Source: an uncultured Collinsella sp.
GTDB taxonomy: Bacteria; Actinomycetota; Coriobacteriia; Coriobacteriales; Coriobacteriaceae
Direction of reading: 5' to 3'
NCBI GenBank assembly: GCA_902494465.1
Contig: CABUTH010000033.1
Coordinates: 1-14,664 of the forward strand
DNA length: 14,664 nt
This document shows positions 750 through 14,664 of the stretch, piece after piece (position 1 is the stretch's first letter; the number at the start of each line of letters is the position of its first letter). Under the pieces are notes generated by a model. It had not been told where the DNA came from. It did no database searches and worked only from the letters and a program-made list of their open reading frames with translations. The position numbers and the translations under genes were made by a program.

Positions 750-764
750 TTCACAAGTAGATTC

Positions 765-798: not shown

Positions 799-898
799 GC
801 ATAGGCGGCCTCCGCGGGGTCGCCGGCGCTGTGCTAGCGCTACACCGTATTTGCGCCCGCCGCGCGGTCTCGCCGGGCGTTACAGAGAGGAACTCATT

Positions 899-3898
899 AT
901 GAGCGACATCATGAGGCCGATCCCGTTTTCGCAGCTGATGAACTGGATCATCGAGGAGCACAAGACTCAGGGCGCCGTCTTTGGCGTGCGCAAGATGGTC
1001 ACGACCAACCAGGAGGGCGCGCTTCCCATTTTTGACGAGCGCATCGAGACTCCGTTTGGCCCGGCCGCCGGTCCCAATACGCAGTTGGCCCAGAACATCG
1101 TGGCATCCTACGTGGCTGGTTCCCGCTTCTTTGAGCTCAAGACCGTTCAGGTTATGGACGGCGAGGAGCTCTCCAAGTGTGTCAACAAGCCCTGCATTGT
1201 GGCGCAGGACGAGTGCTACAACTGCGAGTGGTCGACCGAGCTCGAGGTTCCGCAGGCTTTTGCCGAGTACGTGAAGGCATGGTTTGCCTGCCACCTGATC
1301 GCTCACGAGTACGGCCTGGGCAGCCCGGACGGCTTTGTCTTCAACATGTCCGTGGGTTATGACCTGGAGGGCATCAAGAGCCCCAAGGTCGACGCCTACA
1401 TCGAGGGCATGAAGGACGCCAGCGGCTCCGACGCCTGGAATGAGTGCCGCGCATGGGCGCTCGCCAACCTGGACAAGTTTGAGCATGTCGACGCCGCGTT
1501 TGTCGAGTCCATCCCGGCACGCGTCTCCAACTCCATCACCGAGTCTACCCTGCACGGCTGCCCGCCCGCCGAGATCGAGCGCATCGCGACCTACCTCATC
1601 ACCGAGAAGGGCCTCAACACCTACATCAAGTGCAACCCCACGCTGCTGGGCTATGAGTTTGCACGTCAGCGCCTCAACGAGCTGGGCTTTGACTACATCG
1701 TCTTCGACGATACGCACTTCCGCGAGGACCTGCAGTGGGCCGACGCCGTGCCCATGTTCGAGCGCCTGATTGCCCTGTGCGCCGAGCGCGGCCTGGAGTT
1801 TGGCGTCAAGCTCACCAACACCTTCCCCGTCGACGTGACGAGGAACGAGCTGCCTTCCACCGAGATGTACATGTCCGGCCGTTCGCTGTTCTCGCTGACC
1901 ATCGAGGCTGCCCGTCGCATTACCGAGCAGTTCGATGGCAAGCTGCGCATCAGCTACTCCGGCGGTGCTACGGTCTACAACATCCGCGCCCTGTACGATG
2001 CCGGCATTTGGCCCGTTACCCTGGCGACCGACGTGCTCAAGCCTGGTGGCTACGAGCGCTTTAGCCAGATGGCCGGCGAGTTTACCGACCTGGATGGCAA
2101 GCCGTTCGCGGGCGTCTCTCTCGAGGCCGTGACTGCGATCCAGACCGACTCACTCACCAACCCGCTCTACAAGAAGCCGCTGCGTCCGCTGCCCGACCGC
2201 AAGGTCGCCGGCAAGAGCCCTCTTTCCGATTGCTTTACCACGCCGTGCCGCACGAGCTGCCCCATCCAGCAGGATATTCCCGCCTACCTGGCGGCCGTTG
2301 ACGAGGGCCGCTACGAGGACGCACTCAATATCATCATCGAGCGCAACGCCCTGCCGTTCATTACCGGCACCATCTGCCCGCATCCCTGCGGCCGTGCCTG
2401 CGAGCGTGCGTTCTACGAGCCCGAGGGCGCCCAGATTCGCGCCAGCAAGCTCAAGGCCGCCCGCGAGGCCATGACCGCCGTGCTGCCCAAGCTGCGCGCC
2501 CAGGCCATCGCCAACGACGGCGAGCGCAACGTTGCCGTTATCGGCGGCGGCCCGGCCGGCCTGGCGACGGCGTTCTTCCTGACGCGTGCCGGCGTGCCCG
2601 TCACCATCTTTGAGGCCCGCGATTCGCTCGGCGGCGTGGTCCGTCACGTGATTCCCGAGTTCCGTATCGCGAGCGACGATATCTCCCACGATGCCGAGCT
2701 CTGCCTAGCCTTTGGCGCCAAGGTGCAGCTCAACGCTCGCGTTGATTCCATTGACGAGCTCAAGGACCAGGGCTTTACCGACGTGGTCGTGGCCACCGGT
2801 GCCTGGATGCCCGGCTCTGCGGGCCTGGGCGAGGGCGCCGAGCTCGACGTGCTGGAGTTCCTCGAGGCCGCCAAGAAGGGCGAGAAGCTCGAGCTGGGCG
2901 AGGACGTCGTGGTCATTGGCGCCGGCAACACCGCCATGGACGCGGCCCGCGTGGCCAAGCGCCTGGCCGGCGTGAAGAACGTGCGCCTGGTCTACCGCCG
3001 CACCAAGAAGCAGATGCCCGCCGATGAGGAAGAGCTCGATCTTGCTCTTGCCGACGGCGTTGAGTTCTGCGAGCTGCTGGCACCTAAGGCACTCAACGGC
3101 GCCGTGCTGACCTGCGATGTTATGGAGCTTGGCGAGCCGGATGCAAGTGGCCGCCGCAGCCTCGTCGCCACGGGCGAGACTGTTGAGCTTCCCGCCACCA
3201 CGGTGATCTGCGCCGTGGGCGAGGGCATCGACGCTAGCCTGTACGATGCCGCGGGCGTCGAGCGCGACCGTCGCGGCCGCCTTGCCGCTACCTCCACCGG
3301 CGTCGAGGGCGTCTGGGCTGCGGGCGACTGCCGCCGCGGTCCTGCCACCGTGGTCGAGGCTATCGCCGATGCCGCCGAGGTCGCCCGTGCCATCGCCGAC
3401 GTGGACTTTAACAAGTACGCCGACTGCAACGAGCAGGCCGGCCGCGAGGACACTTGCTACGAGCGCAAGGGGTCGCTGTGCCGCGACAAGCGCAACTGCA
3501 CCAAGACCCGCTGCCTGGGCTGCGGCTCGGTGTGCGAGGTCTGCTGCGACGTGTGCCCCAACCGCGCCAACGTGGCAATTAAGGTGCCGGGCCTGGCCAA
3601 GCATCAGGTCGTCCATGTCGACGGCATGTGCAATGAGTGCGGCAACTGCGCCGTGTTCTGCCCTTACCAGGAGGGTCGTCCCTACAAGGACAAGCTCACC
3701 CTGTTCTGGAGCGAGGAGGACATGGAGAACTCCGAGAACGAGGGCTTCCTGGCCGTGGACGAGGACCACTTTAAGGTTCGCGTCGCCGGCACGGTCCGCA
3801 CCGTCTCGGTCGATGCCGTCAACACCGGTCTTCCCGAGGCCGTCCGCCTGACCATCAGGGCTGTGCGCGACAACTATTCGTACCTTCTTAAGAAATAG
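899..3898 (+). CDS. ygfK: YgfK, multidomain Fe-S/flavin oxidoreductase ('putative selenate reductase subunit')
   Basis: This is a 999-aa protein (E. coli YgfK is about 1030 aa). The ATG at 899 is chosen because AGAGAGG at 884-890 sits 8 nt before it; the frame is open back to 776 but that stretch reads as Arg/Pro-rich filler. Residues 1 to about 430 form a dihydroorotate dehydrogenase-like part (PFGPAAGPNTQLAQN near residue 50). A DPD/glutamate-synthase-like Cys domain follows (C445, C450, C454, then ICPHPCGRACERAF), then an FAD Rossmann motif GGGPAG (549-554), an NAD(P) motif GAGNTAMDAA (from 674) and the FAD-closing WAAGD (806-810). Two Fe-S sets close the protein: C872/C875/C879/C882/C883/C886 and C911/C914/C917/C921. 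This suits electron transfer between NAD(P)H, flavin and Fe-S partners in the cytoplasm. It is the second gene of the purine cluster, 11 nt before the ferredoxin gene. The 'selenate reductase' name is historical; purine or uric acid breakdown is the better context. Confidence 0.92.
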   Translation: MSDIMRPIPFSQLMNWIIEEHKTQGAVFGVRKMVTTNQEGALPIFDERIETPFGPAAGPNTQLAQNIVASYVAGSRFFELKTVQVMDGEELSKCVNKPCIVAQDECYNCEWSTELEVPQAFAEYVKAWFACHLIAHEYGLGSPDGFVFNMSVGYDLEGIKSPKVDAYIEGMKDASGSDAWNECRAWALANLDKFEHVDAAFVESIPARVSNSITESTLHGCPPAEIERIATYLITEKGLNTYIKCNPTLLGYEFARQRLNELGFDYIVFDDTHFREDLQWADAVPMFERLIALCAERGLEFGVKLTNTFPVDVTRNELPSTEMYMSGRSLFSLTIEAARRITEQFDGKLRISYSGGATVYNIRALYDAGIWPVTLATDVLKPGGYERFSQMAGEFTDLDGKPFAGVSLEAVTAIQTDSLTNPLYKKPLRPLPDRKVAGKSPLSDCFTTPCRTSCPIQQDIPAYLAAVDEGRYEDALNIIIERNALPFITGTICPHPCGRACERAFYEPEGAQIRASKLKAAREAMTAVLPKLRAQAIANDGERNVAVIGGGPAGLATAFFLTRAGVPVTIFEARDSLGGVVRHVIPEFRIASDDISHDAELCLAFGAKVQLNARVDSIDELKDQGFTDVVVATGAWMPGSAGLGEGAELDVLEFLEAAKKGEKLELGEDVVVIGAGNTAMDAARVAKRLAGVKNVRLVYRRTKKQMPADEEELDLALADGVEFCELLAPKALNGAVLTCDVMELGEPDASGRRSLVATGETVELPATTVICAVGEGIDASLYDAAGVERDRRGRLAATSTGVEGVWAAGDCRRGPATVVEAIADAAEVARAIADVDFNKYADCNEQAGREDTCYERKGSLCRDKRNCTKTRCLGCGSVCEVCCDVCPNRANVAIKVPGLAKHQVVHVDGMCNECGNCAVFCPYQEGRPYKDKLTLFWSEEDMENSENEGFLAVDEDHFKVRVAGTVRTVSVDAVNTGLPEAVRLTIRAVRDNYSYLLKK

Positions 3899-3909
3899 GC
3901 GAGTCTCTT

Positions 3910-4389
3910 ATGGCCAAATCCATTCAACATAACGTGGCCTACGTTGCCTGCGGAAGCGGTTGCGCCTCCGCAGGCGGCGACGCCCACTGCAGCGAAGGCT
4001 GCATTGGCTGTGGCGCCTGCGTCACGGCCTGCCCCCACGGCGCCATTGCGCTGGTCGATGGCATCGCCCGCGTGGACCGCTCCAAGTGCACGGGCTGTGG
4101 CCTGTGCGGCATGGCGTGCCCGCAGCGCGTGATTGCCTTCGTCCCCGGCTACCAGAACATTCTGGTGCGCTGCAACAACACCGATAAGGGCGCCATTGCG
4201 CGCAAGGTCTGCGACACGAGCTGCATCGGTTGCGGTATGTGCGCCAAAAAGTGCCCTGCCGGCGCTATCCGCATCGAGGACAACTGCGCCCATATCGACG
4301 GCGTGGACTGCCTGTCGTGCGGCATGTGCGCCGTCGTCTGCCCGCATGGCGCCATCCACGACCGCACCGGCATCGCCGCCGGCGTGTAG
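3910..4389 (+). CDS. Four-cluster [4Fe-4S] ferredoxin-like electron carrier
   Basis: This is a 159-aa soluble protein with four CxxCxxCxxxCP motifs: C31/34/37/41, C60/63/66/70, C105/108/111/115 and C134/137/140/144. They are arranged as two double-cluster modules joined by a short linker (about residues 75-100). Extra cysteines at 14, 18, 27, 88, 101 and 126 could ligate or tune further centres. No signal peptide, membrane segment or flavin motif is visible. The ATG at 3910 lies 11 nt after the ygfK stop with a weak ribosome site (AGGCGAG), which suggests translational linkage to ygfK. The xdhD-like gene begins 12 nt after its stop. Its position between the Mo hydroxylase and YgfK suggests that it shuttles electrons between them. 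That role is inferred from context; the Fe-S assignment is direct. Confidence 0.9.
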   Translation: MAKSIQHNVAYVACGSGCASAGGDAHCSEGCIGCGACVTACPHGAIALVDGIARVDRSKCTGCGLCGMACPQRVIAFVPGYQNILVRCNNTDKGAIARKVCDTSCIGCGMCAKKCPAGAIRIEDNCAHIDGVDCLSCGMCAVVCPHGAIHDRTGIAAGV

Positions 4390-4401
4390 AAGGGAATCAC
4401 C

Positions 4402-7179
4402 ATGGCACAGGAATTCACTTTTACCGTTAACGGCGTCGAGCGCACGACGACGGAGAATAAACCGCTGCTGCGCTACCTGCGCGACGACCTGCATATCCAT
4501 TCCGCCAAGGACGGCTGCTCCGAGGGCGCCTGCGGCACCTGCACCATTCATGTGGACGGTGCGGCCGTCAAGGCGTGCGTGCTGACCACCGCTCTTGCCG
4601 CCGGCCGCAACATCGTGACCGTCGAGGGCCTGCCCGAGGACGTGCGCGAGGCCTTTGTGTACGCCTTTGGCGCCGTGGGCGCCGTGCAGTGCGGTTTTTG
4701 CATTCCCGGCATGGTCATGGCGGGTGCGGCGCTCATCGCCGAGGACCCCGAGCCCACTGAGGAGCAGATCAAGTACGCCATTCGCGGTAACGTCTGTCGC
4801 TGCACCGGCTACAAAAAGATTATCGAGGGCATCTCGCTGGCCGCTGCGGTGCTCCGCGGCGAAAAGCAGATCGACGAGGACCTGGAGCGCGGCGATGACT
4901 ACGGCGTGGGCAAGCGCGCCTTCCGTATTGACGTGCGCAAGAAGGTGCTCGGCGAGGGCAAGTATCCCGACGACATCGACGAGATCGACCAGCCGGGCCT
5001 GACCTACGCCAGCGCCGTGCGCTCCAAGTATCCGCGTGCCCGCGTGCTCTCCATCGATACCTCCAAGGCCGAGGCCCTACCCGGTGTGGTTGGCATCCTG
5101 CGCGCCGAGGACGTGCCGGTCAACCAGGTCGGCCACCTTATCCAGGACTGGGACGTCATGATCGCCCAGGGCGACATCACCCGCTGCGTGGGCGATGCCA
5201 TCGTGCTGGTGGTTGCCGAGGACGAGGCGACGCTCGAGAAGGCCAAGAAGCTCGTAAAGATTGATTACGAGCCGCTGGAGCCCGTGCGCAACATCGCCGA
5301 GGCCAGGTCTGCCGACGCCTCGCGCCTGCACGACAGCTTCTTTGCCTTTGGCAACACGGTGGAGCTCAAGGACAACGTGTGCCAGAGCCGTCACGTGACG
5401 CGCGGTGACGCCGCCAAGGCGCTGGCAGAGAGCGCGTTTACCGTGACGCAGCGCTTTACCACGCCCTTTACCGAGCATGCCTTCTTGGAGCCCGAGTGCG
5501 CCGTTGCCTTCCCGTACAAGAATGGCGTCAAGGTGCAGTCGACCGACCAGGGCGCCTACGACACGCGCAAAGAGTGCGCTCACATGTTTGGCTGGGATAG
5601 CGAGCCCGAGCGCGTGGTCGTCGAGACCATGCTCGTGGGTGGCGGCTTTGGCGGCAAGGAGGACGTGTCCATCCAGCACTTGGCCGCGCTCGCCGCATAT
5701 AAGTTCCAGCGTCCTGTGAAGTGTAAGCTCACGCGTGCCGAGTCGCTCGCTTTCCATCCCAAGCGTCACGCCATGGACGGCACCTTTACACTGGGCTGCG
5801 ACGCCGAGGGCAACTTTACCGGCCTGGATTGCGAGATCAACTTTGATACCGGCGCCTACGCGTCGCTGTGCGGCCCGGTGCTCGAGCGCGCCTGTACGCA
5901 TGCCGTCGGCCCCTACAAGTACCAGAACACCGACATTCGCGGCTTTGGCTACTACACCAACAACCCGCCCGCCGGTGCGTACCGCGGCTTTGGCGTTTGC
6001 CAGTCCGAGTTTGCGCTCGAGAGCCTGATCGACCTGCTGGCCGAGAAGGTCGGCCTGGATCCGTGGGAGATCCGCTACCGTAACGCCATCGAGCCGGGCG
6101 AGGTTTTGCCCAACGGCCAGATTGCCGATTGCTCCACGGCACTGAAGGAGACGCTGCTCGAGGTCAAGGATGCCTACTACGCGCATCCCGGACACGCTGG
6201 TATCGCCTGCGCCATGAAGAACGCCGGCGTGGGCGTGGGCCTGCCCGATGCCGGCCGCTGCAAGATTCGCGTCGAGAACGGCGTGGCCGTGGTCTATGCC
6301 GCCACGTCCGACATCGGCCAGGGCTGCAACACCGTCTTTTTGCAGGACGTTGCCGAGGCATGCGGTCTGCCGCTTCACTGTATTGCCAACGGCGAGTGTT
6401 CTACCGAGAACGCTCCCGACTCCGGCACCACGTCTGGCTCGCGTCAGACGGTCGTGACCGGCGAGGCCGTGCGCGGTGCCGCCTTCCTGCTGCGCGATGC
6501 CATGCTTGACATCGAGGCCGGCAAGCCCGCACCCGATACTCCCGTGAGCGCGCATGGCGACGGCGTCAAGATCGAGTACGACGACGGTCGCGCCTATCAG
6601 CTGCACACGCAGGAGCTCGTCGCCGGCCAGGGTATGCATCCTCAGGATCCCGCGGCCGCCATCAAGGCGCTCGAGGGATGCGAGTTTGGCTACGTGTACC
6701 TGGAGCCGACCGACAAGCTGGGTGCGGATGTTCCCAACCCCAAGAGCCACATCTGCTACGGCTTTGCCACACATGTGGTCATTTTGGATGATGACGGCCG
6801 CGTGAGCGAGGTCTATGCCGCGCACGATTCCGGCAAGGTGGTCAATCCCATCTCCATCCAGGGTCAGATCGAAGGCGGCGTGCTCATGGGTATGGGCTAT
6901 GCGCTTACCGAGGACTGGCCGCTCAAGGACTGCGTACCCCAGGCAAGGTACGGTACGCTCGGGTTGTTCCGTGCGCCCGAGATTCCGGATATCCACGCCA
7001 TTTACGTGGAGAAGGACGAGCTGTTGCCCGTGGCATACGGCGGCAAGGGCATTGGAGAGATCGCAACGATTCCCACGGCGCCCGCCGTACAGAACGCCTA
7101 CCGCGCGTTTGACGGCAAACTGCGTCCAGATCTGCCCATGGTGGATACGCCTTACAGCCGCGTCCGCAACCGCGGGTAG
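4402..7179 (+). CDS. xdhD: XdhD-type molybdenum hydroxylase (selenium-dependent xanthine dehydrogenase family), [2Fe-2S]/Moco fusion
   Basis: This is a 925-aa protein (E. coli XdhD is about 956 aa). The ATG at 4402 follows GAAGGG with good spacing. Residues 1-80 are a plant-type [2Fe-2S] ferredoxin domain (C39, C44, C47, C59). Residues 90-140 are the helical [2Fe-2S] domain (C97, C100, C132, C134; QCGFC and CRCTGY). From about 170 on it is the xanthine dehydrogenase Moco domain, with GGGFGGKE (413-420), PAGAYRGFG with R528, TSDIGQG, and the late GIGE motif with E886 as the expected catalytic Glu. The FAD domain of classical xanthine dehydrogenases is absent. The family hydroxylates purines such as xanthine or hypoxanthine, or runs reductively in uric acid use. 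Selenium, where used, is a labile Mo ligand inserted after translation, so no in-frame UGA is expected and none is seen. It is the last gene of the operon, followed by a terminator. Substrate and direction cannot be read from sequence. Confidence 0.9.
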   Translation: MAQEFTFTVNGVERTTTENKPLLRYLRDDLHIHSAKDGCSEGACGTCTIHVDGAAVKACVLTTALAAGRNIVTVEGLPEDVREAFVYAFGAVGAVQCGFCIPGMVMAGAALIAEDPEPTEEQIKYAIRGNVCRCTGYKKIIEGISLAAAVLRGEKQIDEDLERGDDYGVGKRAFRIDVRKKVLGEGKYPDDIDEIDQPGLTYASAVRSKYPRARVLSIDTSKAEALPGVVGILRAEDVPVNQVGHLIQDWDVMIAQGDITRCVGDAIVLVVAEDEATLEKAKKLVKIDYEPLEPVRNIAEARSADASRLHDSFFAFGNTVELKDNVCQSRHVTRGDAAKALAESAFTVTQRFTTPFTEHAFLEPECAVAFPYKNGVKVQSTDQGAYDTRKECAHMFGWDSEPERVVVETMLVGGGFGGKEDVSIQHLAALAAYKFQRPVKCKLTRAESLAFHPKRHAMDGTFTLGCDAEGNFTGLDCEINFDTGAYASLCGPVLERACTHAVGPYKYQNTDIRGFGYYTNNPPAGAYRGFGVCQSEFALESLIDLLAEKVGLDPWEIRYRNAIEPGEVLPNGQIADCSTALKETLLEVKDAYYAHPGHAGIACAMKNAGVGVGLPDAGRCKIRVENGVAVVYAATSDIGQGCNTVFLQDVAEACGLPLHCIANGECSTENAPDSGTTSGSRQTVVTGEAVRGAAFLLRDAMLDIEAGKPAPDTPVSAHGDGVKIEYDDGRAYQLHTQELVAGQGMHPQDPAAAIKALEGCEFGYVYLEPTDKLGADVPNPKSHICYGFATHVVILDDDGRVSEVYAAHDSGKVVNPISIQGQIEGGVLMGMGYALTEDWPLKDCVPQARYGTLGLFRAPEIPDIHAIYVEKDELLPVAYGGKGIGEIATIPTAPAVQNAYRAFDGKLRPDLPMVDTPYSRVRNRG

Positions 7180-7248
7180 GGTAGGGCGCGGACGGTCATT
7201 GCTGACGAGCTGTTCGCGCTCAACATCAACTGTATATGCTGCGCCTTT

Positions 7249-7284
7249 GGCCCCAGCTCCATCGCGAGCCGGGGCCTTTTGTTT
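7249..7284 (+). terminator. Intrinsic terminator of the ssnA-ygfK-ferredoxin-xdhD operon
   Basis: GGCCCC (7249-7254) pairs with GGGGCC (7271-7276), and an inner GCT/AGC pairing extends the stem past one mismatch around an 8-nt loop. TTTTGTTT follows at 7277-7284. It lies 70 nt after the xdhD stop. Confidence 0.85.
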
Positions 7285-7300
7285 GGAGCGCCTCCGCATG

Positions 7301-7624
7301 CGGAAGCTGCGTCCCGGAATCCAGCCTCGGAACGGGATTAACTTTCCCAACGGGGCCGCATGCGGAAACTGCGTCCCGGAATCGTGCCTCAGAATGGGAT
7401 GTGTTTTCCGCTGGCCGGCCGTTTGGAAAGTGCATCCCAGTTTGAGCGTTTATTTTGGGATGCGGTTTCCGCTGAAGGACTCAACCGGAAAGCACGACCC
7501 GTTCCGAGACCTGATTCCGGGACACGCTTTCCGCTAGGCCCGCCATCCGGAAAGTGCATCCCGTTTTGAGCGTCCAGGCTGGGCCGCGCTTTCCGTTGGC
7601 GTGGCCGTTGGGAAAACGCGGCCC
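7301..7624. repeat. Palindromic repeat array A (five 48-bp units plus a half unit, 61-62-bp period)
   Basis: Five imperfect palindromes lie at 7301-7348, 7363-7410, 7424-7471, 7486-7533 and 7548-7595, with a left half unit at 7610-7624. Each has a left arm close to CGGAAAnTGCGTCCCG, a centre related to GAATnnnGCCTCnGAA, and a right arm close to GGGATGCGnTTTCCG. Variable spacers of 13-14 bp separate the units. The array fills the gap between the convergent xdhD and nuclease-fold genes. Short open frames crossing it are by-products of the repeats. No gene is supported between 7180 and 7667. Confidence 0.9.
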
Positions 7625-7667
7625 AGATAGGGGGGATGCGATCCGGCGATGCACGGCCTAGCAGCTC

Positions 7668-8666
7668 CTACAGCTCCACGTCGTTGAGCCACGTCGGTAG
7701 AGCGGTCTGCCGGATGCCTGCCGTCTGCAGCTTTTTGGCGAGCATTCCTGCCGAGCGGACCTCGTTCATGGTAAAGCGCAGCAGAGGGTGACCGTAGAGC
7801 GATAGGTGCGCCTCGCGCTGTCGTTCGGCAACGAGCGCCTCGGCGGTGGTGCGTCCGGCCAGCATGGTCTGGTCGGTATATTTGATGAGCCCGTCGAGCT
7901 CGCCCAGCGTGAGTTCCCGCGCCTGGCGCTCCCAGGCAAAGTCCGTTCGTATGGGCTTGGCCGAATCGAAGGGGTCCGTCAGCTTGTATTGAAGCCAGTC
8001 GGGCGCAAAGCCCGTCTCGATCATGATGGCTCGGGCGACCGATTCCCCGCCGCTCTCGGCGCGGGCGTCGGCATATCGAAGCGTTGTGAGGGCGGTGCGA
8101 ATCGCGCGACCATTGCGGGCAGTCGCTCGTTGCTCAACGGCCTCCATCAGCTGTTCCGACGCAAGGCCGAGCTTTGAGATCGCCGAATCGGCAATGGGCA
8201 TGCCGTCGGCAAAACCAGTTTGCAGCAGGCAATCTGTGGCCGTTTGGATGGGCGGCGTTACCGATATGCCGGCTCTGCGTATTGCTCCGGCCGGCTCAAT
8301 CTGGTGTCGCTGAATATGTGCGCCCGGACGAGCCGACGGCTTTGTCGAGCTGCAAACATGCACGACGTTCAGGTGTCGCCACGAGACCTCGAGCCCCAGC
8401 AGGCAAGCTGCCGAAAACGAGCAGAACGTCCAATCGGGATGGATGATCGCAAGGGCGCGGAGGATTTCGCAATGGCGTTGCGCTCGGTTGAGTTCATCCC
8501 AGCGCGTTTTTCGCGCAAACAACCCCGGCATGGGCGAGACAACCGTGCCGCTGGTGCGCCGAAGGAGCGCTTTTCGGATCGCCGTGCTCGGGGGAATCAG
8601 ACAGCGCCCCTCTTGTTCGGCTTGAGTGAGCAGTTGGTCGATGAGCTGGTCATTGCAATGGGTCAT
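7668..8666 (-). CDS. AbiEi-like / DUF559-type nuclease-fold protein
   Basis: This is a 332-aa protein. Its ATG at 8666 is preceded by AAAAGGAGG, an excellent ribosome site with 9-nt spacing. The N-terminal part (about 1-100), with PGLFARKTRWDELNRAQRH and WTFCSFSAACLLGLEV, resembles the N-terminal region of actinobacterial AbiEi-like proteins. The C-terminal part carries the pattern of a Vsr/DUF559 restriction-like fold: E208 (GGESVAR), D242 (RTDFAW), E257-L-D-G with K262, then ERQREAHLSLYGHPLLRFT (281-299). Related proteins are often labelled type IV antitoxin AbiEi or DUF559. No AbiEii nucleotidyltransferase toxin gene is adjacent, so it appears to be an orphan. Base use is less GC-biased than in the operon upstream, in line with an accessory gene. 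The fold is moderately supported; whether it cuts DNA, regulates or defends is unknown. Confidence 0.65.
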   Translation of the reverse strand: MTHCNDQLIDQLLTQAEQEGRCLIPPSTAIRKALLRRTSGTVVSPMPGLFARKTRWDELNRAQRHCEILRALAIIHPDWTFCSFSAACLLGLEVSWRHLNVVHVCSSTKPSARPGAHIQRHQIEPAGAIRRAGISVTPPIQTATDCLLQTGFADGMPIADSAISKLGLASEQLMEAVEQRATARNGRAIRTALTTLRYADARAESGGESVARAIMIETGFAPDWLQYKLTDPFDSAKPIRTDFAWERQARELTLGELDGLIKYTDQTMLAGRTTAEALVAERQREAHLSLYGHPLLRFTMNEVRSAGMLAKKLQTAGIRQTALPTWLNDVEL

Positions 8667-8962
8667 GAGCTACCGCCTCCTTTTGGGTAGCAAAAACGTA
8701 TCAGCTGGAACTTGCCGCTCAGCTGACCAAAAGCTGACCAAAATCTAACCATGCAGGCAGATGGCCGGGTTTTGACGTCATTTTTTGAAGCTGAATCGGT
8801 GGGCGGTAATTGGCGACCTTGAACGGTAGCGAGTTATGAAGAATGGGTAAGTTTCGGGACGTGTACTTTTTTGAAAAAGAGCATTCTATCTGCTGTTTTG
8901 TGTCTCTGGATCGCATGTTTGAAGGTCTGTGATAAGGGCGACGGATTGTCGTCTTGTATCTG
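8667..8962. other. Intergenic region between divergent genes, with an 11-bp tandem repeat
   Basis: No convincing gene was found. GCTGACCAAAA occurs twice in tandem at 8722-8732 and 8733-8743, followed by a decayed third copy (TCTAACCATGC, 8744-8754). It ends about 56 nt upstream of the - strand nuclease-fold gene and could be an operator. TGACGTCA at 8773-8780 is a perfect 8-bp palindrome. No promoter with good -35 and -10 elements could be fixed in either direction. Confidence 0.5.
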
Positions 8963-9009
8963 CGGAAACTACGGCCCAGTTTTGGCTCCAGAACGGGATG
9001 CATTTTCCG
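8963..9009. repeat. Palindromic repeat B (single 47-bp unit)
   Basis: This is one isolated copy of the unit seen in arrays A and C. The left arm starts with CGGAAACTACGGCCC, the centre contains TTTGGCTCCAGAA, and the right arm is CGGGATGCATTTTCCG. As a solitary copy it shows that the left-arm-to-right-arm segment is the natural unit of the family. It lies upstream of the ATPase gene. Confidence 0.85.
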
Positions 9010-9065
9010 GAACGGTCCACGTGCGGTGGTGTACCGCCCCTTTTGCGTGCGCTGCCTGTCGAATT

Positions 9066-9117
9066 ACGTTATAGCTAGCTATATTATAGGAAGGTATAAT
9101 ATGGCTAGCTATAACGT
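9066..9117. promoter_or_regulatory. 23-bp inverted repeat upstream of the ATPase gene (candidate operator or promoter region)
   Basis: Bases 9066-9088 pair with 9095-9117 at 22 of 23 positions; the only exception is T9080 opposite G9103. The loop is GGAAGG. The arms hold ACGTTATAGCTAGC and its complement, with TATAAT at 9095-9100. It ends 17 nt before the ATPase start codon, so in RNA it would be a long hairpin next to the ribosome site; in DNA it would be a symmetric protein-binding site overlapping a -10-like element. No good -35 was found at 17 bp from TATAAT. Confidence 0.7.
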
Positions 9118-9134
9118 GAAGGAAGGATGGCCCT

Positions 9135-10526
9135 ATGTTTATCGGAAGAACAGCGGAAATGTCCGAGCTCAATCGACTGTATGGCACGGGCTCCTTTGAG
9201 ATGCCTGTGATTTACGGCCGCCGTCGCGTGGGTAAAACGCGCCTTATCACAGAGTTCATCCAAGGTAAGAAGGCTATTTACTTTCAAGCTCGTCGTACCA
9301 ATGCAGTGGCAAACCTGCACGGCTTTAGCCAGGCGATACTTGCGGGTTCGGTTGGTGCTGCAGGTGTGTCGTTTCGTAGTTTTGACGAGGCATTCGATGC
9401 GTTGGCCACCATGGCTCGCACGGAACGTTTGATTGTTGTGATTGACGAGTATCCCTATCTCGTCCAATCGAATCCCGAGATCAGCTCGTTGCTGCAAGAC
9501 AAGATCGATCACTTGTACAAAGAGACCAAGCTCATGCTTATCCTGTGCGGCTCGTCTCTTTCGTTTATGGAGGAACAGGTGTTGGGCTACGAGAGCCCAC
9601 TATACGGTAGGCGTACGGCCCAGTTTAAGATCTTGCCGCTCGATTTTATGACGACCCTCGGCCTGTGGCAGAGCATGGGTCGCGAAGACGCTGCAGTTTG
9701 CTATGGCATGACGGGCGGCATTCCTGCATATATCGAGAAAGTCGATCCTGCCGCACCGCTCAAGGACAACATCAAACGTCTTTTTCTTACTCCTACGGGC
9801 TATCTCTTTGAGGAGCCGAGTAACCTGCTATTGCAAGAGTGCCGCAATCCCGAGCAATATGATGCGATCGTGCAAGCAATTGCTCAGGGGCGCTCGAAGA
9901 TCTCGGAGATTGCGAGCTCTACGGGAATCCCTGCGAGCAACGTAAAGGGCTATGTGGATAAGCTGGCGTCGCTTGGGATTGTCGAGCGCGAGCTGCCCCT
10001 AAACGAGACGAGCAATAAGCGAGCCGTGTATCTGCTGAGCGACCAGATGTTTAGGTTCTGGTACAAGTTTGTTCCGCAGAACATCGGGCTGATTCAAAAC
10101 GATATGGCCGAGATGGCGTATAAGCGTATTGAGCCGTACGTATCGGATTACATGGGTACGGTCTTTGAGCTTATATGCAGGCAATATGTTTACGAACTCG
10201 CGCGCGCGGGCCGGCTCGATGTGGTTCCGGCGAGCGTCGGGCGCTGGTGGGGGACGGATAATCGCACGCATGCGCAGGAAGAAATCGACTTGATTGTTGA
10301 CGATGGCGAGGGCACTGCGCTGTTTGCGGAGTGCAAATGGCGCAGTGAACCGGTAGGCGAGGATGTTCTGGAAAAGCTCGTGTACCGAAGCGAGCTCTTT
10401 AGGCGGCAGCATAAAAGCTACGTGATCTTCTCGAAGCGTGGCTTTACGCAAGGATGTCAGGAAGCTGCGGCGAGCAGGGGAGATGCCAAGCTGATTTCGT
10501 TTGCCGAGATGTGCGAGCGGAGATAA
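9135..10526 (+). CDS. AAA ATPase, archaeal-ATPase/DUF234 type, with PD-(D/E)XK-like C-terminus
   Basis: This is a 463-aa protein. The ATG at 9135 follows AAGGAAGG with about 8-nt spacing. Walker A is GRRRVGKT (28-35) and Walker B is LIVVIDE (99-105), followed by a sensor-like LILCGSSLSFM (from 135). Residues from about 243 to 300 read as a winged helix (SKISEIASSTGIPASNVKGYV). The C-terminal DUF234 region contains E345 (GTVFELICRQ), D385 (EEIDLIVDD) and E399-C-K401 (FAECKW), the layout of a restriction-type nuclease core. Members of this family are widespread and mostly uncharacterised, with accessory-gene behaviour. The gene uses more A/T at third positions than the purine operon. It stands alone on its strand, preceded by a large palindrome and flanked by copies of the 48-bp repeat. 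Family and domains are confident; the biological role is unknown. Confidence 0.85.
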   Translation: MFIGRTAEMSELNRLYGTGSFEMPVIYGRRRVGKTRLITEFIQGKKAIYFQARRTNAVANLHGFSQAILAGSVGAAGVSFRSFDEAFDALATMARTERLIVVIDEYPYLVQSNPEISSLLQDKIDHLYKETKLMLILCGSSLSFMEEQVLGYESPLYGRRTAQFKILPLDFMTTLGLWQSMGREDAAVCYGMTGGIPAYIEKVDPAAPLKDNIKRLFLTPTGYLFEEPSNLLLQECRNPEQYDAIVQAIAQGRSKISEIASSTGIPASNVKGYVDKLASLGIVERELPLNETSNKRAVYLLSDQMFRFWYKFVPQNIGLIQNDMAEMAYKRIEPYVSDYMGTVFELICRQYVYELARAGRLDVVPASVGRWWGTDNRTHAQEEIDLIVDDGEGTALFAECKWRSEPVGEDVLEKLVYRSELFRRQHKSYVIFSKRGFTQGCQEAAASRGDAKLISFAEMCERR

Positions 10527-10546
10527 CCAAGCGCGCTCTGATGTGA

Positions 10547-10849
10547 TGCTCGGAATGGGATGCGCTTTCCTTTTGCAACCCTTGGCGGAAAGCGTGTCCC
10601 AGATTTCGGCTTCAGAATGGGATGCCGTTTCCGGATCGGCCCTCAGGCGGAAACTACGACCCGGAATTTGGCTCCAAAACGGGATACGCTTTCCCGGTGG
10701 CATCTCTAGCGGAAACTGCATCCAGGAATGAGCTCTCGGAACGGGACACGCTTTCCCATCGGGGCTTCAAACGGAAACCGTGTTCCGGAATTGAGCCTCA
10801 GGGTGGGACGCATTTTCCGGTAGAGGCCTGGGACGGAAGGCGTGTCCCA
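10547..10849. repeat. Palindromic repeat array C (four 48-bp units with a half unit at each end, 62-bp period)
   Basis: A right half unit (10547-10571, CTCGGAATGGGATGCGC then TTTCC) is followed by full units at 10586-10633, 10648-10695, 10710-10757 and 10772-10819 and a left half unit at 10834-10849. Successive starts are exactly 62 bp apart. The arm and centre sequences match arrays A and B. The array begins about 20 nt after the ATPase stop, in the gap before the convergent small-peptide gene. Adjacent right and left arms can also pair: TGGGATGCGCTTTCC (10556-10570) is complementary to 10586-10601 apart from small mismatches, so a long hairpin would close the ATPase transcript. No gene is supported here. 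Confidence 0.9.
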
Positions 10850-10918
10850 GAATCCGGCTAATCCGATGGCCAGGTGGTTGAGCGAGCGGGCTCCGGGGCT
10901 CCATTACTGAAAATTCAT

Positions 10919-10947
10919 TTGTTAAACCTGGCAACCGTAGGTAGAAT
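10919..10947 (+). promoter_or_regulatory. Sigma-70-type promoter driving a short + strand RNA
   Basis: TTGTTA (10919-10924) and TAGAAT (10942-10947) are separated by exactly 17 bp, a close match to a vegetative promoter. The predicted start is near 10954. No ribosome site and open frame follow, which points to a non-coding transcript. Confidence 0.7.
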
Positions 10948-10990
10948 AAAGTCGACGGCAGCCCAAGGGTGATAGCTGGGCAGCGCCGTT
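10945..10990 (-). terminator. Candidate terminator of the - strand small-peptide mRNA
   Basis: Read on the - strand, ACGGC...GCCGT with the inner TGCCCA/TGGGC pairing is followed by CGACTTTATT. The same bases form the 5' hairpin of the + strand RNA, so the two transcripts would overlap fully at their 3' parts. The T-run is short. Confidence 0.4.
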
Positions 10991-11038
10991 ACTTAGTTCA
11001 AGGGGTCAATGCCTTAACGGCGTCGACCCCTCTTCTTT
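10954..11038 (+). ncRNA. Candidate antisense RNA (putative type I antitoxin)
   Basis: This is a predicted RNA of about 85 nt between the promoter at 10919-10947 and a terminator-like hairpin at 11001-11038. Its 5' half folds as ACGGC(10955-10959)/GCCGT(10985-10989) enclosing GCCCA/TGGGC (10961-10965/10977-10981). Its 3' half overlaps the last 25 or so bases of the 41-codon gene on the opposite strand and its 3' untranslated region, the 3'-overlap layout known for TxpA/RatA-like pairs. CGCCGTT (10984-10990) can alternatively pair with AACGGCG (11016-11022), crossing the terminator stem. Expression is not shown by sequence. Confidence 0.5.
11001..11038 (+). terminator. Terminator-like hairpin of the + strand RNA
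   Basis: AGGGGTC (11001-11007) pairs with GACCCCT (11025-11031), with an inner GCC/GGC helix (11011-11013/11019-11021). The T-rich TCTTCTTTT follows. It overlaps the 3' end of the - strand small gene. Confidence 0.6.
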
Positions 11039-11139
11039 TGCTTCGTACGCTGCTTAAGTGCCTCGGAAAGTCCGATAAGCGCCGTGAGGAGCGAGACCAA
11101 AGAGGTCAGGAGCTTCACGAAATCAATCAGATCGGTCAT
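11014..11139 (-). CDS. 41-aa membrane peptide, putative type I toxin-like
   Basis: The ATG at 11139 is chosen because GGGAGGTGAT, almost a perfect anti-16S match, ends 4 nt before it; an in-frame ATG two codons upstream overlaps the ribosome site and is too close. The peptide starts MTDLIDFVKLLTSLV. A hydrophobic helix spans about residues 3-25, and a very basic tail (QRTKQKKRGRRR) has 9 basic residues in the last 13. Length, a single membrane helix and a charged tail match the general design of small type I toxins such as TxpA, BsrG and Fst, although no sequence identity to a named one is claimed. Its 3' end converges with a candidate antisense RNA. A constitutive structural microprotein or holin-like peptide is the main alternative. 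That it is a gene is likely from the ribosome site; toxicity is inference. Confidence 0.65.
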   Translation of the reverse strand: MTDLIDFVKLLTSLVSLLTALIGLSEALKQRTKQKKRGRRR

Positions 11140-11243
11140 GGGCATCACCTCCCGTCGCATGGAGGGCGCTGCCCGGCACATGGAACTGCCGTCAACAATA
11201 ACCAGTCTATCAAACTGCAGCCATAAATACGAATATATGTTCG

Positions 11244-11272
11244 ATAATAACAGCGATCTGACCATCTCAAAA
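11244..11272 (-). promoter_or_regulatory. Possible promoter for the 41-aa peptide gene
   Basis: On the - strand, TATTAT (11244-11249) lies 17 bp downstream of a weak TTTTGA (11267-11272). This would give a leader of about 100 nt, and long leaders are usual for type I toxin mRNAs. The -35 match is poor. The 11200-11250 stretch is the most AT-rich part of this divergent gap and may also carry the exonuclease promoter. Confidence 0.3.
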
Positions 11273-11353
11273 CGCAGCTTTACGCAAGGATGCCGGGTAG
11301 CCGCGCTGGGCGATTTCATGTCCGCACGAGCGCCTATCCTTACGGCAATGTAG
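11258..11353 (+). pseudogene. Decayed 3' fragment of a second DUF234-type ATPase gene
   Basis: The frame reads LTISKRSFTQGCRVAAL and ends at a TAG (11351-11353). The intact ATPase reads VIFSKRGFTQGCQEAAA at residues 430-446, about 20 residues before its end. At DNA level GCTTTACGCAAGGATG is identical at 10441-10456 and 11277-11292. Upstream of about 11258 the similarity fades, and no ATPase motifs remain. This looks like the tail of a lost paralogue, left between the small-peptide gene and the exonuclease gene. Confidence 0.55.
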
Positions 11354-11397
11354 CTGCCTGTGAAACAGGCGGCAGCTGACGGAGAAAGGCCCTCGCC

Positions 11398-12132
11398 GTG
11401 CCAGACAAAAAGACGCCGTGTATCTCGGCTATCGATACGACGAACTTTGCGCGCCAGATCGTGCTGGACTTTGAGTTTGCGCCGGTGCCAAGGCAGCGCC
11501 AGCGCCGCGGGTTGCGCAACGAGATTATCGAGGTCGGCGCGGTTAAGCTCGATAACCGCGGCAACGTTATAGGCGAGTTCTCGCAGTTTGTGCAGACAGA
11601 ATTTACCGAAGGCGTTGCGTTTCCCGTCCGCGAGCTTACGGGGATATCGGCCGTGGACACCGCGATGGCTGATCCGCTCTATGTGGTGATCAAAAGACTC
11701 GGCGATTGGATCGGTCGCTACTCCGCCCAGATAGTTTGCTGGAGCGGGGCGGATCATCGACAGCTTATGACCGAGTGCCAGGCAAAGCACATGGACCTTT
11801 CCGCATTCCCTACGGACTGGGCCGACCTGCAGGCGTTTTACACTTCGATCATGGACGTGGGCAGCCACGGGTGCGTCTCTTTGAGTGACGCGGCAACGTG
11901 GTTTGGCATCGAGTTCGACGAGTCGACGGGTCACGCCCACAGCGCCTTAGCCGATGCGCGCGTGACCGCCAAGCTGCTCAAGCAGGTGATGGATGGGGAC
12001 TACCGCGTGAGCCCGCACGTCCAGGAAGTCCGCCAGCGGTGGGGGAGGGGCGAGCGAGCCCAGACGCGCCTTTCCAGCAAGTGCCCCGAGCTGGGCGACC
12101 TGCTGCTGAGGCTGAAGGCGGAGGGGAGGTAG
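11398..12132 (+). CDS. DEDDh-family 3'-5' exonuclease
   Basis: This is a 244-aa protein starting at GTG 11398, 8 nt after the GGAGAAAGG ribosome site. Exo I is LDFEF with D24 and E26, followed by the typical EIIEVGAVKLD (41-52). Exo II is CWSGADHRQL with D119. Exo III is HAHSALADA with H181 and D186, completing the D-E-D-D-h set. The tail (about 205-244) is basic and lacks a recognisable extra domain. The WSGADHRQL region looks more like the KapD/ERI-1-type branch than the polymerase III epsilon subunit. Expected activity is metal-dependent 3'-5' removal of nucleotides from DNA or RNA ends in the cytoplasm. It is a single gene, convergent with the 140-aa gene that follows. The catalytic family is confident; the substrate is not known. 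Confidence 0.85.
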   Translation: MPDKKTPCISAIDTTNFARQIVLDFEFAPVPRQRQRRGLRNEIIEVGAVKLDNRGNVIGEFSQFVQTEFTEGVAFPVRELTGISAVDTAMADPLYVVIKRLGDWIGRYSAQIVCWSGADHRQLMTECQAKHMDLSAFPTDWADLQAFYTSIMDVGSHGCVSLSDAATWFGIEFDESTGHAHSALADARVTAKLLKQVMDGDYRVSPHVQEVRQRWGRGERAQTRLSSKCPELGDLLLRLKAEGR

Positions 12133-12242
12133 GCCTTTGGAGAACGCCATTCGGTTTGGCATGGCAGGGCTGTAAGCGCGACTTCGCACTGCTGTTTGAA
12201 TCGAAGCATCAACCAGTATGACGAGCTGTCTGGTCTGTCTGC

Positions 12243-12665
12243 CTAAACCATCGCAATCCCGCGGGCCGCACTCAACAGCTCATACTCCCTTTCGCTCCAC
12301 TGCCGCAGCTCGGCTGTGCGTACGGCGTCGCGACACAGGTCCAGAAACACCTCAGCTCCCTCGCAGAAGCACTCGCGGGCAAAGTCGCCCGAGCCGCTTG
12401 CGACGCACGCGCCGTCGGCAAAGAGCTTCCAGCTAGACGGCTCACGCAAATCGTCTCCGAACAACTTAATCTGTAGCACATGCGGATTGCCAGCAGCGCA
12501 GAGCTCTTCCTCGAGCTTCTGTACCGTGAAGCGCATCTGGTGGGAGAGGCTGTTCTTGACCATGGCCGAGGCATAGCCGCTCGGCTCGTCCAGAAGATGC
12601 ATTCGTTTTGGCTTGGCTGCCAGGTTGTGGAAGTTGCGCTCACTGCGCACGGAGAAATTGTCCAT
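12243..12665 (-). CDS. Conserved-looking hypothetical protein, 140 aa
   Basis: The ATG at 12665 is chosen because AAAGGAG lies 5 nt upstream; the frame stays open to 12878 but the extra part crosses a tandem repeat and hairpins. The protein starts MDNFSVRSERNFHNLAAKPK. Residues 1-35 are basic and polar, and 36-60 include a likely helix (YASAMVKNSLSHQMRFTVQKL). The second half is acidic with four cysteines (C86, C100, C102, C112 approximately), ending in an Arg/Glu-rich helix. No signal peptide or membrane segment is visible, so it is presumably cytosolic. I do not recognise the family and assign no function. It converges with the exonuclease gene; no strong terminator is seen in the 110-nt gap between them. 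Confidence 0.7.
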   Translation of the reverse strand: MDNFSVRSERNFHNLAAKPKRMHLLDEPSGYASAMVKNSLSHQMRFTVQKLEEELCAAGNPHVLQIKLFGDDLREPSSWKLFADGACVASGSGDFARECFCEGAEVFLDLCRDAVRTAELRQWSEREYELLSAARGIAMV

Positions 12666-12766
12666 ACGGACTCCTTTCATCAATGTTGGCAGGGCCACCG
12701 TGCCTCTTGGCCGGTTGGCGTCGGGATCGTGGAGCCAACTCTCTACCCCGACTCTGGATAAAACGC

Positions 12767-12783
12767 GCCCGCTCCTTGCGGGC
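12767..12783 (-). terminator. Small GC hairpin with a T-run on the - strand
   Basis: GCCCGC (12767-12772) pairs with GCGGGC (12778-12783) around a 5-nt loop. On the - strand GCGTTTTAT follows, as in a weak intrinsic terminator. It would stop transcription coming from the membrane protein gene before the 140-aa gene. Confidence 0.4.
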
Positions 12784-12796
12784 AAGATGGAGTCTA

Positions 12797-12826
12797 TCAA
12801 CGTGTACGGACTCAACGTGTACGGAC
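12797..12826. repeat. Perfect 15-bp tandem duplication
   Basis: TCAACGTGTACGGAC occurs twice back to back (12797-12811 and 12812-12826), each copy containing the palindrome GTAC. It lies between two hairpins, 130-160 nt upstream of the 140-aa gene. It may be a binding site or a replication slip. Confidence 0.85.
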
Positions 12827-12836
12827 AGAAATCAAG

Positions 12837-12866
12837 CGCCATCCGCGAAATGACGCGCGGATGGCG
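12837..12866. terminator. 11-bp perfect hairpin, probable terminator of the - strand membrane protein gene
   Basis: CGCCATCCGCG (12837-12847) pairs perfectly with CGCGGATGGCG (12856-12866) around an 8-nt loop. On the - strand CTTGATTTCTG follows, a moderate T-rich tail; on the + strand TTGGTTTCCC follows. It lies 180 nt after the - strand gene that ends at 13046. Confidence 0.5.
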
Positions 12867-12898
12867 TTGGTTTCCCAAGTGATTATTTGGCTTTCATC

Positions 12899-12981
12899 CG
12901 GAAAAGTGTCGAAATCAGCCGTGTAAAAGTACGGAAAAGTGTCGAAATAGGCACCTTAAAACTTCGGAAAAGTGTAGTTGG
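12899..12981. repeat. Three iteron-like repeats at exact 33-bp spacing
   Basis: CGGAAAAGTGTCGAAAT occurs at 12899-12915 and 12932-12948, and a third copy shares its first 11 bases (CGGAAAAGTGT) at 12965. The starts are 33 bp apart, close to three helical turns. The spacers share a TAAAA-rich motif. With the two hairpins and the 15-bp tandem repeat they fill the 12666-13045 gap, in which I see no gene. Confidence 0.85.
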
Positions 12982-13045
12982 ATGACAAAACAGTACTTAG
13001 AAGCCGATGCTGGATGCGGGATCCTGCGGCTGCCTTCAGCCCTCG

Positions 13046-14032
13046 CTACTCGTCGTCTCCGTCGTTGGGGTCGCCCTTGAGGGTGTTGATGTCCAGGTAC
13101 TGGTTATCGTCCTCTTTTTGCTGGGTTTCCGACTCCGCTTGGGTGGGGCCGCGGAACAGCTGGAATCCCTCAAACGCAATGACACCGAGCAGGGCAATGA
13201 TAATGGCGATAAAGGCAACCTTGACTGCCTGCGGAAATTCCGAGAAACGCAGCGCCTTTTCCTCGGCGTAATAATCGGCGAAGCGCTCTTCGCCCGTGCT
13301 TTTGGTATACGCCGGCGCGGACGCGGCCTCCGGGTCATATTCCGGTGCGGGCGTGGCAGCGTACGGATCGTTGAGATAATCGCTCGATGCGGTGCCATAA
13401 TCCTCGGTCTCGATGCGACCGTTGCCAGCATAGCCATCGGAATAATCGGAATATGCCGCACCGCCCTCATAGTCCGCGGCGCTCGTGTTGGCGGCAAAAA
13501 GCGGGTTAACTGGAACGTCGAGCGCCGGCATGCCGGTAGAGGTCTCATCCAGATCGGCTGCAGCCCAGGAATCGTAGGCAACCTGATGGGCAACGGGCTC
13601 ATCGAGCCTTGCGACCGGAGGCTTGCGTGCCGCAGGAACAGGCAACTGCTGGGCGCTGTACATAACGGTGCTGTCGGCCGATTTGCCCTGCGTCGCTGCA
13701 GCGAGAAATGCCGCCGTCTCGGACGGGTCGCTTGCGGGGCGGGGAGCGGGCGTGGGCGCCGAAGTGGGTGCGGGCGTAGGCGCGGGCGTCGAAACAGGCG
13801 ACTGCGCAGGAGTCGGCGCAGATGCGGTCTTAGGCGCAAGTGCGGGATTGGGGTTTGACGGGCGAGCCCCGCCGCTCATGAGTTCGTCGGCGGTCCACGG
13901 GCGATCATCCATCACGTCGTCAAGGCTCAGCGAAAACAGGTCGTCTTCACTCTCATCGAACATGTGGTGCACATGTCCACCAATTGCCGGAATCAATCCG
14001 CGAGCGGTGCATGATGCCTTGCTCAACGCCAT
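13046..14032 (-). CDS. Pro/Ala-rich single-pass membrane protein of unknown function
   Basis: This is a 328-aa protein. The ATG at 14032 is chosen for AAAGGA 9 nt upstream; a later Met at residue 24 lacks a ribosome site. Residues 1-23 are short and basic with Cys8 and His20/22/23. An acidic patch follows (DESEDDLFSLSLDDVMDD), then a long disordered stretch with a TPAP-type Pro/Ala repeat (about 75-100) and a Tyr/Asp/Ala-rich part (about 185-250). One strong membrane helix lies at about 271-290 (VAFIAIIIALLGVIAF). The 35-residue tail is polar and acidic. No enzymatic motif is visible. The N-terminal region is probably cytoplasmic, given the K/R residues before the helix and no signal peptide. 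The gene is preceded by a perfect -10 box. A scaffold, envelope or division-associated role is possible but not supported. Confidence 0.75.
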   Translation of the reverse strand: MALSKASCTARGLIPAIGGHVHHMFDESEDDLFSLSLDDVMDDRPWTADELMSGGARPSNPNPALAPKTASAPTPAQSPVSTPAPTPAPTSAPTPAPRPASDPSETAAFLAAATQGKSADSTVMYSAQQLPVPAARKPPVARLDEPVAHQVAYDSWAAADLDETSTGMPALDVPVNPLFAANTSAADYEGGAAYSDYSDGYAGNGRIETEDYGTASSDYLNDPYAATPAPEYDPEAASAPAYTKSTGEERFADYYAEEKALRFSEFPQAVKVAFIAIIIALLGVIAFEGFQLFRGPTQAESETQQKEDDNQYLDINTLKGDPNDGDDE

Positions 14033-14066
14033 TCTGTTCCATCCTTTCGAAATACTAATGACATCG

Positions 14067-14072
14067 ATTATA
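14067..14072 (-). promoter_or_regulatory. -10 box for the membrane protein gene
   Basis: TATAAT on the - strand lies 34 nt upstream of the start codon at 14032. No good -35 lies 16-18 bp away, so it may depend on an activator. Confidence 0.5.
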
Positions 14073-14155
14073 TGGAACTTCCCAAGCTGCTCGGTCTTGG
14101 ATTCGTGCTTTCCAGAACTCGCGCCCAAAAGGGGAGGGGCAATCCATGCGAGTGC

Positions 14156-14662
14156 CTACTTGTCGCCGGCCGCCGCCTTGGCCTCATTGAGGTAGCTATA
14201 GAAGCTGTACTTGGAGATGCCAAAGAACTCGCAGGCGCGCTCGCTCGACTTGGAAATGAGGAAGGCGCCGCGACGGTCGAGGTAGCCAATGGCACGAATG
14301 CGCTCGTCTTTGGTCATGAGTGCCGCGGGCTTGCCCACAAACTGCTCGCACTCGTGCAGCAGGTCCTCGAGCAGGTCGCCGATGTTCTTGGTAATGGGCT
14401 CGGGCTCGGTATAGCCCGTGCCGCCGGTGCCGGTAAAGGCGTCGAGCGAACGCTCAAAAGCCTTCATGAGCGTAATGTCAAAGTTAATGCCCAAAATGCC
14501 GACGGGCTTGCCCTCATCGTTGCGGATAAAGATCGTCGACGATTTGAGCAGCTTACCGTCGGTGGTTTTGGTGAGGTATGGCTCGCGGTCGTGTACGTCG
14601 GTGGCGCCCTCGTGCATGGACTCAAACACGATATGGCTGGGGCCGTCACCCAGTTTGCGCCC
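14156..14662 (-). CDS. YheO-like PAS/HTH transcription regulator, 3' part (5' end outside window)
   Basis: The frame is open to the window edge (GRKLGDGPSH precedes the first possible GTG start at 14629), so the gene begins beyond it. The visible part holds the end of a YheO-type PAS domain (YLTKTTDGKLLKSSTIFI, then GKPVGILGINFDIT). A Gly/Thr/Pro linker (GTGGTGYTEPEP) follows, then a C-terminal helix-turn-helix (TKDERIRAIGYLDRRGAFLI, then ACEFFGISKYSFYSYLNEAK). This architecture is that of the YheO/DauR family, cytosolic regulators that sense small molecules and often control nearby amino-acid or purine-related genes. It is transcribed towards the membrane protein gene 123 nt downstream, which has its own -10 box. 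The ligand and targets cannot be read here. Confidence 0.88.
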   Translation of the reverse strand, partial: GRKLGDGPSHIVFESMHEGATDVHDREPYLTKTTDGKLLKSSTIFIRNDEGKPVGILGINFDITLMKAFERSLDAFTGTGGTGYTEPEPITKNIGDLLEDLLHECEQFVGKPAALMTKDERIRAIGYLDRRGAFLISKSSERACEFFGISKYSFYSYLNEAKAAAGDK

Positions 14663-14664
14663 GC

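Follow-up and report, generated by a model that had tools for sequence, protein, structure and literature searches.

Passages of one account describe bacterial interspersed mosaic elements (BIMEs) and repetitive extragenic palindromes (REPs) as intergenic, palindrome-rich and regularly spaced sequences of alternating orientation whose copy number varies between strains, and state that REP palindromes are maintained by complementary changes (PMC2817692). Insertion sequence (IS) elements insert into REPs, according to part of a second report (PMC1525189). Neisseria intergenic mosaic elements (NIMEs) are portrayed in an excerpt of a third as intergenic arrays of short inverted repeats beside variable surface-type genes, with a suggested role as promoters of exchange (PMC3898611). 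We examined a family of short intergenic repeats in a 14,664-nucleotide stretch of DNA from an uncultured Collinsella sp. (GenBank assembly GCA_902494465.1, contig CABUTH010000033.1, positions 1 to 14,664 of the forward strand; hereafter the window). Its layout resembles that of BIMEs and Neisseria NIMEs, but linkage to REP-associated tyrosine transposases (RAYTs), pairing between arms and the dRS3 pattern were not found. The repeat is confirmed as real; it is specific to a clade, keeps a conserved core and is exactly spaced. We give about even weight to the proposal that its arrays are rows of phased binding sites for a sequence-specific DNA-binding protein, which also recombine in register.

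Sequence, spacing and distribution of the repeat

A sequence-only reading of the window had described a 48-bp palindromic unit, repeated every 61-62 bp, with ten near-complete copies and three half units in three clusters. The same count came from a weight-matrix scan, which located 23 copies of a 16-bp motif (arms) in three intergenic clusters, with 11 arms at 7301-7625, 2 at 8963-9009 and 10 at 10556-10849; together they make up ten full 48-bp units and three half units (at 7610, 10556 and 10834). The arm consensus is [CG]GGAAA[CG]YGYRTCCC[AG] (467 arms from the window and 80 listed loci). Orientation flips at each successive arm, and the arm-start steps in the window alternate between 32 and 30 bp, except for one of 29 and one of 31. 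Model-free repeat finding in the window reproduced the proposed period as an eight-copy 36-nt family recurring every 61-62 bp within clusters, a figure now refined to two inverted steps of about 31 bp each, 62 bp in all. The repeat is better described as a single 16-bp motif of alternating orientation than as a 48-bp palindrome.

Twenty-two of the 23 arms score 13.2-20.6 in the weight matrix and the remaining one 10.9, values flattered by training on these same arms, while ten Markov-shuffled windows hold 5-22 weak matches each at a score of at least 6, the best reaching 15.9. The nearest genome served for an independent check: with up to 2 mismatches allowed, a two-arm pattern matched it 33 times per strand and the reversed control 0 times. 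Tandem Repeats Finder at its default score did not report the arrays. The earlier statement that no named family has this layout agrees with an Rfam scan of the window, which returned no family at its cut-off, and with a literature search on palindromic, REP and intergenic repeats of Collinsella that yielded no description, supplements and subscription literature lying outside it (PMC8040213, PMC7771070, both in part); tables of palindromic candidates are kept in supplementary files, according to part of PMC8040213.

Array A (7301..7625), between convergent genes, consists of units at 7301-7348, 7363-7410, 7424-7471, 7486-7533 and 7548-7595 and a half unit at 7610-7625. Array B (8963..9009), flanked by divergent genes, is a single unit whose arm step is 31 bp. 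Array C (10556..10849), between tandem genes, runs from a half unit at 10556-10571 through units at 10586-10633, 10648-10695, 10710-10757 and 10772-10819 to a half unit at 10834-10849.

The unit and period had been read as constant and the spacers as variable, and this is kept in other genomes. Steps were counted between consecutive arms scoring at least 11 and lying 16-60 bp apart in all collected loci, with identical stretches merged; here, as in the array-length, gene-context and both divergence sets below, related strains are counted repeatedly and only identical sequences were merged. Within units (plus to minus arm) the step is 32 bp in 347 of 354 cases, 31 in 5 and 18 in 2. Between units (minus to plus) it is 30 bp in 239 of 286 cases and 29 in 42, with 31 and 32 once each, 21 twice and 56 once; three further arm pairs have equal orientation. 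This spacing would fit same-face phasing at about three helical turns per step. The commonest array length is six arms (22 of 92 arrays), and among 90 arrays 48 have complete units at both ends, 39 have one half unit and 3 have half units at both ends.

That the arrays fit neither clustered regularly interspaced short palindromic repeats (CRISPR) nor BIMEs, as had been proposed, is too strong on the BIME side: the intergenic or extragenic location, alternating orientation and regular spacing of BIMEs and REPs are all present, and what is missing is the RAYT link and the pairing of arms. The Collinsella site is also only 16 bp, with a step of 31 bp. An assignment to CRISPR was rejected. The arrays share with CRISPR a near-constant spacer length and a variable spacer sequence, but their repeats alternate in orientation, many arms differ and the spacers are only 13-14 bp; copies are about 60-76% alike over 36-111 nt rather than near-identical direct repeats. 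No Cas family was found by Pfam among nine scanned proteins of the window, to which the search for cas genes was confined.

Collinsella aerofaciens is a common human gut bacterium, and the repeat family is specific to it and its close kin. The proposal to scan Collinsella genomes was borne out, in that 22 of 41 match the two-arm pattern (up to 2 mismatches), with the period kept in the other copies; 21 of these hold 22-56 units and one a single unit, and the reversed control matches 0 of 41. Among 396 genomes of the class, four outside the genus have 1-2 matches, and the control pattern matches 3 of the 396. In a scan of named genomes, which gave at least 120 stretches, 79 of the 80 among the matches listed are titled Collinsella, many of them C. 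aerofaciens; the other, from Christensenellaceae, is a lone pair of weak arms that we take as chance. The 21 array-rich genomes share a neighbouring protein at 97-100% identity, compared with 80% in an array-free genome (G013), and therefore look like one close species complex. An origin in viruses or plasmids was rejected: viral contigs contain no match to the exact pattern, and phages none to array C. Array A does match one record of a plasmid collection (NZ_OY725717.1, 899,693 bp, C. aerofaciens); this 'plasmid' equals contig 6 of genome G007 in length and is probably a piece of chromosome.

Core conservation and arm pairing

The core of the arm (GGAAA..CCC, positions 2-6 and 13-15) was compared in 398 non-identical orthologous full-length pairs, in which the query had passed the motif scan and the subject was not required to. 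Core positions differed at 294 of 15,017 compared sites (2.0%), against 15.7% at the degenerate arm positions, 15.9% at arm ends, 13.5% in loops, 13.4% in spacers and 10.0% in flanks, and core divergence lay below flank divergence in 377 of the 398 pairs. In that the core and the distances are fixed while the degenerate positions are free, the arrays resemble protein-binding sites. Each 16-bp arm would be one putative protein site, two of them facing each other across the fixed 16-bp centre of the 48-bp unit; with units every 62 bp or so, sites would recur about every three helical turns, a picture drawn from sequence, spacing and core conservation. Binding would be cooperative, and the protein would serve to mark or organise intergenic positions, most of them at 3' ends. 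The conserved core, helical-scale spacing and variable unit number would offer a direct handle on this putative DNA-binding protein.

Several observations weigh against binding sites. Gap openings in the same alignments, whole-unit changes included, are not rarer in loops (6.9 per kb) and spacers (9.6) than in flanks (6.6). In a smaller set of same-length pairs, where passing the motif scan was required of both sequences and the core is thereby favoured, the core differed by 0.8% and the degenerate positions by 7.1%, and loops (4.0%) and spacers (3.2%) also fell below the flanks (7.9%). There is dependence among the orthologous pairs, and units passing often from one array to another could alone hold the core uniform. 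Finally, a binding protein for the arrays was not identified; no ParB paralogue was found as a reader, and a ParB/Noc reader is not clade-wide, as 12 of 21 array-bearing genomes have only a single ParB_N protein.

The location of the arrays speaks for the binding-site proposal but also raises a different explanation. Gene context was assessed for 90 arrays (the window and 79 loci), with genes called by a codon-usage script rather than a standard gene finder and 23 arrays at sequence edges dropped. None of the remaining 67 lies inside a called gene; 38 lie between convergent, 20 between tandem and 9 between divergent genes, compared with 63 convergent pairs among 407 gene pairs. Arrays thus favour convergent gene ends, a preference that persists when each configuration of flanking genes is counted once (17 of 38 convergent vs. 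25 of 228 array-free, p = 3e-6). A tRNA or tmRNA gene is present in 7 of 16 chosen loci. This bias toward convergent ends would suit 3'-end RNA hairpins with a role in transcript protection or termination, as would the folding of the units: four of five window units fold as RNA at -16.2 to -18.9 kcal/mol, with a best z of -3.17. However, the fifth folds like its shuffles (z -0.08), and the units are able to fold because one motif is used in both orientations. No terminator-like site falls inside an array, the scan covering loops of 3-8 and finding four such sites in the region vs. 4.4 in shuffles. By eye, a hairpin with a T run at one locus (L080) sits upstream of the array and is retained in empty alleles.

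Most directly against hairpins, the arms do not covary. In 175 non-redundant units, pairing at arm positions 7-12 and 16 is no better than chance (z -0.8 to 1.8), whereas REP palindromes are reported to be maintained by complementary changes. The loop reads in one direction, roughly as GAAT....CTCAGAA, which makes its ends anti-complementary (positions 17-19, z -4.1 to -7.4), and excess pairing in the loop is confined to its very centre (position 24, z 4.9). Across the spacer the largest positive z for pairing is 2.1 (121 pairs), with a slight excess in the redundant set (12.43 vs. 12.14 of 16). Linkage between neighbouring variable positions is low throughout and uninformative. The arrays are not a selected hairpin, and we consider a role at the RNA level highly doubtful. 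The term palindromic, used in the sequence-only reading, is correct for the sequence and misleading for function; without covariation between them, the arms have the look of independent sites. The arrays thereby draw a line between hairpin-forming units and paired protein sites, which the term palindromic repeat often covers alike.

Chromosomal position and polarity

Nucleoid-occlusion and chromosome-domain sites of the Noc, SlmA and MatP type are many, conserved and symmetric, and occur singly rather than in phase; those of the Noc type are absent around the terminus. The Collinsella sites are likewise many, conserved and symmetric, and possibly depleted around the terminus, but they stand in phased arrays, their terminus depletion is modest and has exceptions, and there is no clade-wide ParB paralogue. 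With the origin taken as dnaA, 22 mapped loci lie at a mean of 0.37 of the half-chromosome (0.5 expected, p = 0.018), and 3 of the 22 lie beyond 0.62, where 8.4 are expected. One locus without a match (h) was left out and L194 was counted with its own locus; the position of locus e is a partial match, and p is 0.012 without it. Exceptions occur near +0.9 and +1.0 Mb. The arrays perhaps favour the origin side of the chromosome, and we treat this as a lead.

Unit direction agrees with the replication fork in 40 of 49 polar units in genomes G001 and G002 and in 27 of 36 in G024. Counted by locus, 8 agree with the fork, 2 run against it and 5 are mixed (p = 0.11); fork polarity looks strong by unit but not by locus, and is likewise a lead only. 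These trends could be extended to a new clade-specific chromosome-organising system, in which a dedicated protein would nucleate on phased, polar, fork-oriented arrays on the origin side that also serve as cassette boundaries; we regard this larger scheme as improbable. If the origin bias and fork polarity are true, chromosome organisation in this branch of the phylum would be open to direct test.

Unit turnover and neighbouring genes

Arrays vary by whole units of about 62 bp, with their ends fixed. At a convergent locus shared by 21 genomes (F12/F5), the longest array per genome has 2 arms in 13 genomes, 3 in 1, 4 in 2, 6 in 2, 7 in 1 and 8 in 2, and the array starts 43 or 44 bp past the same stop codon in 20 of the 21. 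The orthologue of array B in L032 has 8 arms instead of 2 and is 186 bp longer, or three 62-bp periods, with 150 of 167 aligned bases matching. A comparison of 134 array pairs that have their flanks in common gave 18 rows, counting both strands, in which units were cleanly gained or lost; the crossovers are scattered over arms and loop, and a crossover at one fixed base was rejected. Similar 31-bp pieces recur from one strain to another in arrays that are not the same. The core and frame common to all arms may let them misalign and recombine in register, which would yield whole-unit gain and loss; two arrays could also fuse with loss of the intervening gene, or the reverse, the direction and the enzyme being inferred. 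The unit steps and one clear chimeric array, described below, underlie this recombination part of the binding-site proposal. Strain-variable unit number could also serve for strain typing.

Whole arrays are present or absent at orthologous sites: 20 stretches of genomes G001, G002 and G024 that match eight array loci from named strains lack the array. Such presence and absence would be expected of a selfish, non-autonomous palindromic element, akin to REPs or miniature inverted-repeat transposable elements, that is copied in trans by a transposase or recombinase and has no host function. Its clade-restricted copy number points the same way, as do inserted units at the F12/F5 locus that by eye are unlike their neighbours, and the six-arm array, the commonest length, could be the mobile form. 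However, where both flanks aligned, empty sites read by eye carry about 7-50 bp of other sequence in place of the array and no clean target duplication, and the core stays conserved after insertion. Nor do the transposases of RAYT-driven REPs lead to the arrays: Y1_Tnp is found in 35 of 41 genomes, both with and without arrays, and 0 of 20 stretches around Y1_Tnp genes, out of those listed (18 in 11 genomes with arrays, the other 2 in genomes without), hold an array. We judge the selfish element an unlikely, though not negligible, explanation.

Two observations concern mobile elements themselves. A Y1-transposase gene of RAYT size at L159 (G001:C1:671000-677000) is flanked by its own 33-bp-spaced repeats of the GGGGACAGAC type, at 2427-2481 and 3422-3470, which is likely a RAYT/REP family separate from the arrays. 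In genome G021 (L194, beside the F5 gene), the loop of an array unit holds an element that by eye has 12-bp inverted ends and a 3-bp duplication, as REPs too receive IS elements; it has a 395-aa frame without an assigned identity.

Gene content between arrays also differs among strains. The window reads, in order, a molybdenum hydroxylase-type oxidoreductase gene (F10, 4402..7179, plus strand; Pfam MoCoBD_1, MoCoBD_2 and Fer2_2), array A, F18 (7668..8666, minus strand; 332 aa, no Pfam or NCBIfam match), array B, F11 (9135..10526, plus strand; ATPase_2 and DUF234), array C and an exonuclease-domain gene (F41, 11398..12132, plus strand; Pfam RNase_T). At L083, which lacks F18, the single array aligns both with the F10-side array of L049, over the left flank and first arm of the latter (89%), and with array B of L032, over its right end (92%); it is a clear chimera, with its left flank from array A and its right end from array B. 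One array stands between F18 and F41 at L139, without F11, and at L049 F18, F11 and F41 are all missing next to F10. The F4/F1 locus has an array alone in some strains, the gene for a 1,363-aa protein with a weak fn3 domain in others, and in further strains a module with SipW-type genes, with arrays on the visible sides and end pieces shared. Given in-register recombination between arrays, array loci would therefore be boundaries of exchangeable accessory genes.

Such exchange could be the reason that the arrays are kept, as NIME-like recombination hot spots that promote transfer of neighbouring genes between strains. The differing cargo at the F10-F41 and F4-F1 loci is in keeping with this, as are crossovers within arms or loops and the surface-type and restriction genes near arrays (an MmeI-type restriction gene adjoins the array in L033). 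Like NIMEs, these are intergenic inverted-repeat arrays beside variable surface-type genes; unlike NIMEs, they have fixed spacing. The dRS3 pattern ATTCCC(N8)GGGAAT has two matches with 2 mismatches in the window (8578 and 9909; 0.41 expected), none of them in an array. Exchange needs neither the exact 32/30 spacing nor a conserved core, however, and accessory genes may simply be tolerated at arrays, the cargo having been compared at array loci only. We hold it to be distinctly improbable that the arrays are maintained for exchange.

Three further features were noted. At L135 (2270-4043) a serine recombinase gene lies beside a 3-arm array. The surrounding stretch is similar to the tmRNA end of L137 but yielded no intact tmRNA, and probably carries an element that has entered the tmRNA gene. 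The window carries an operator-like 23-bp inverted repeat, 96% complementary and built on TAGCTAGCTATA, at 9066-9117, immediately before the ATPase gene F11 (9135). A 33-bp tandem repeat of 2.3 copies, beginning CGGAAAAGTGTCGAAATAAG, is found at 12899-12975 and has a layout unrelated to that of the arrays.

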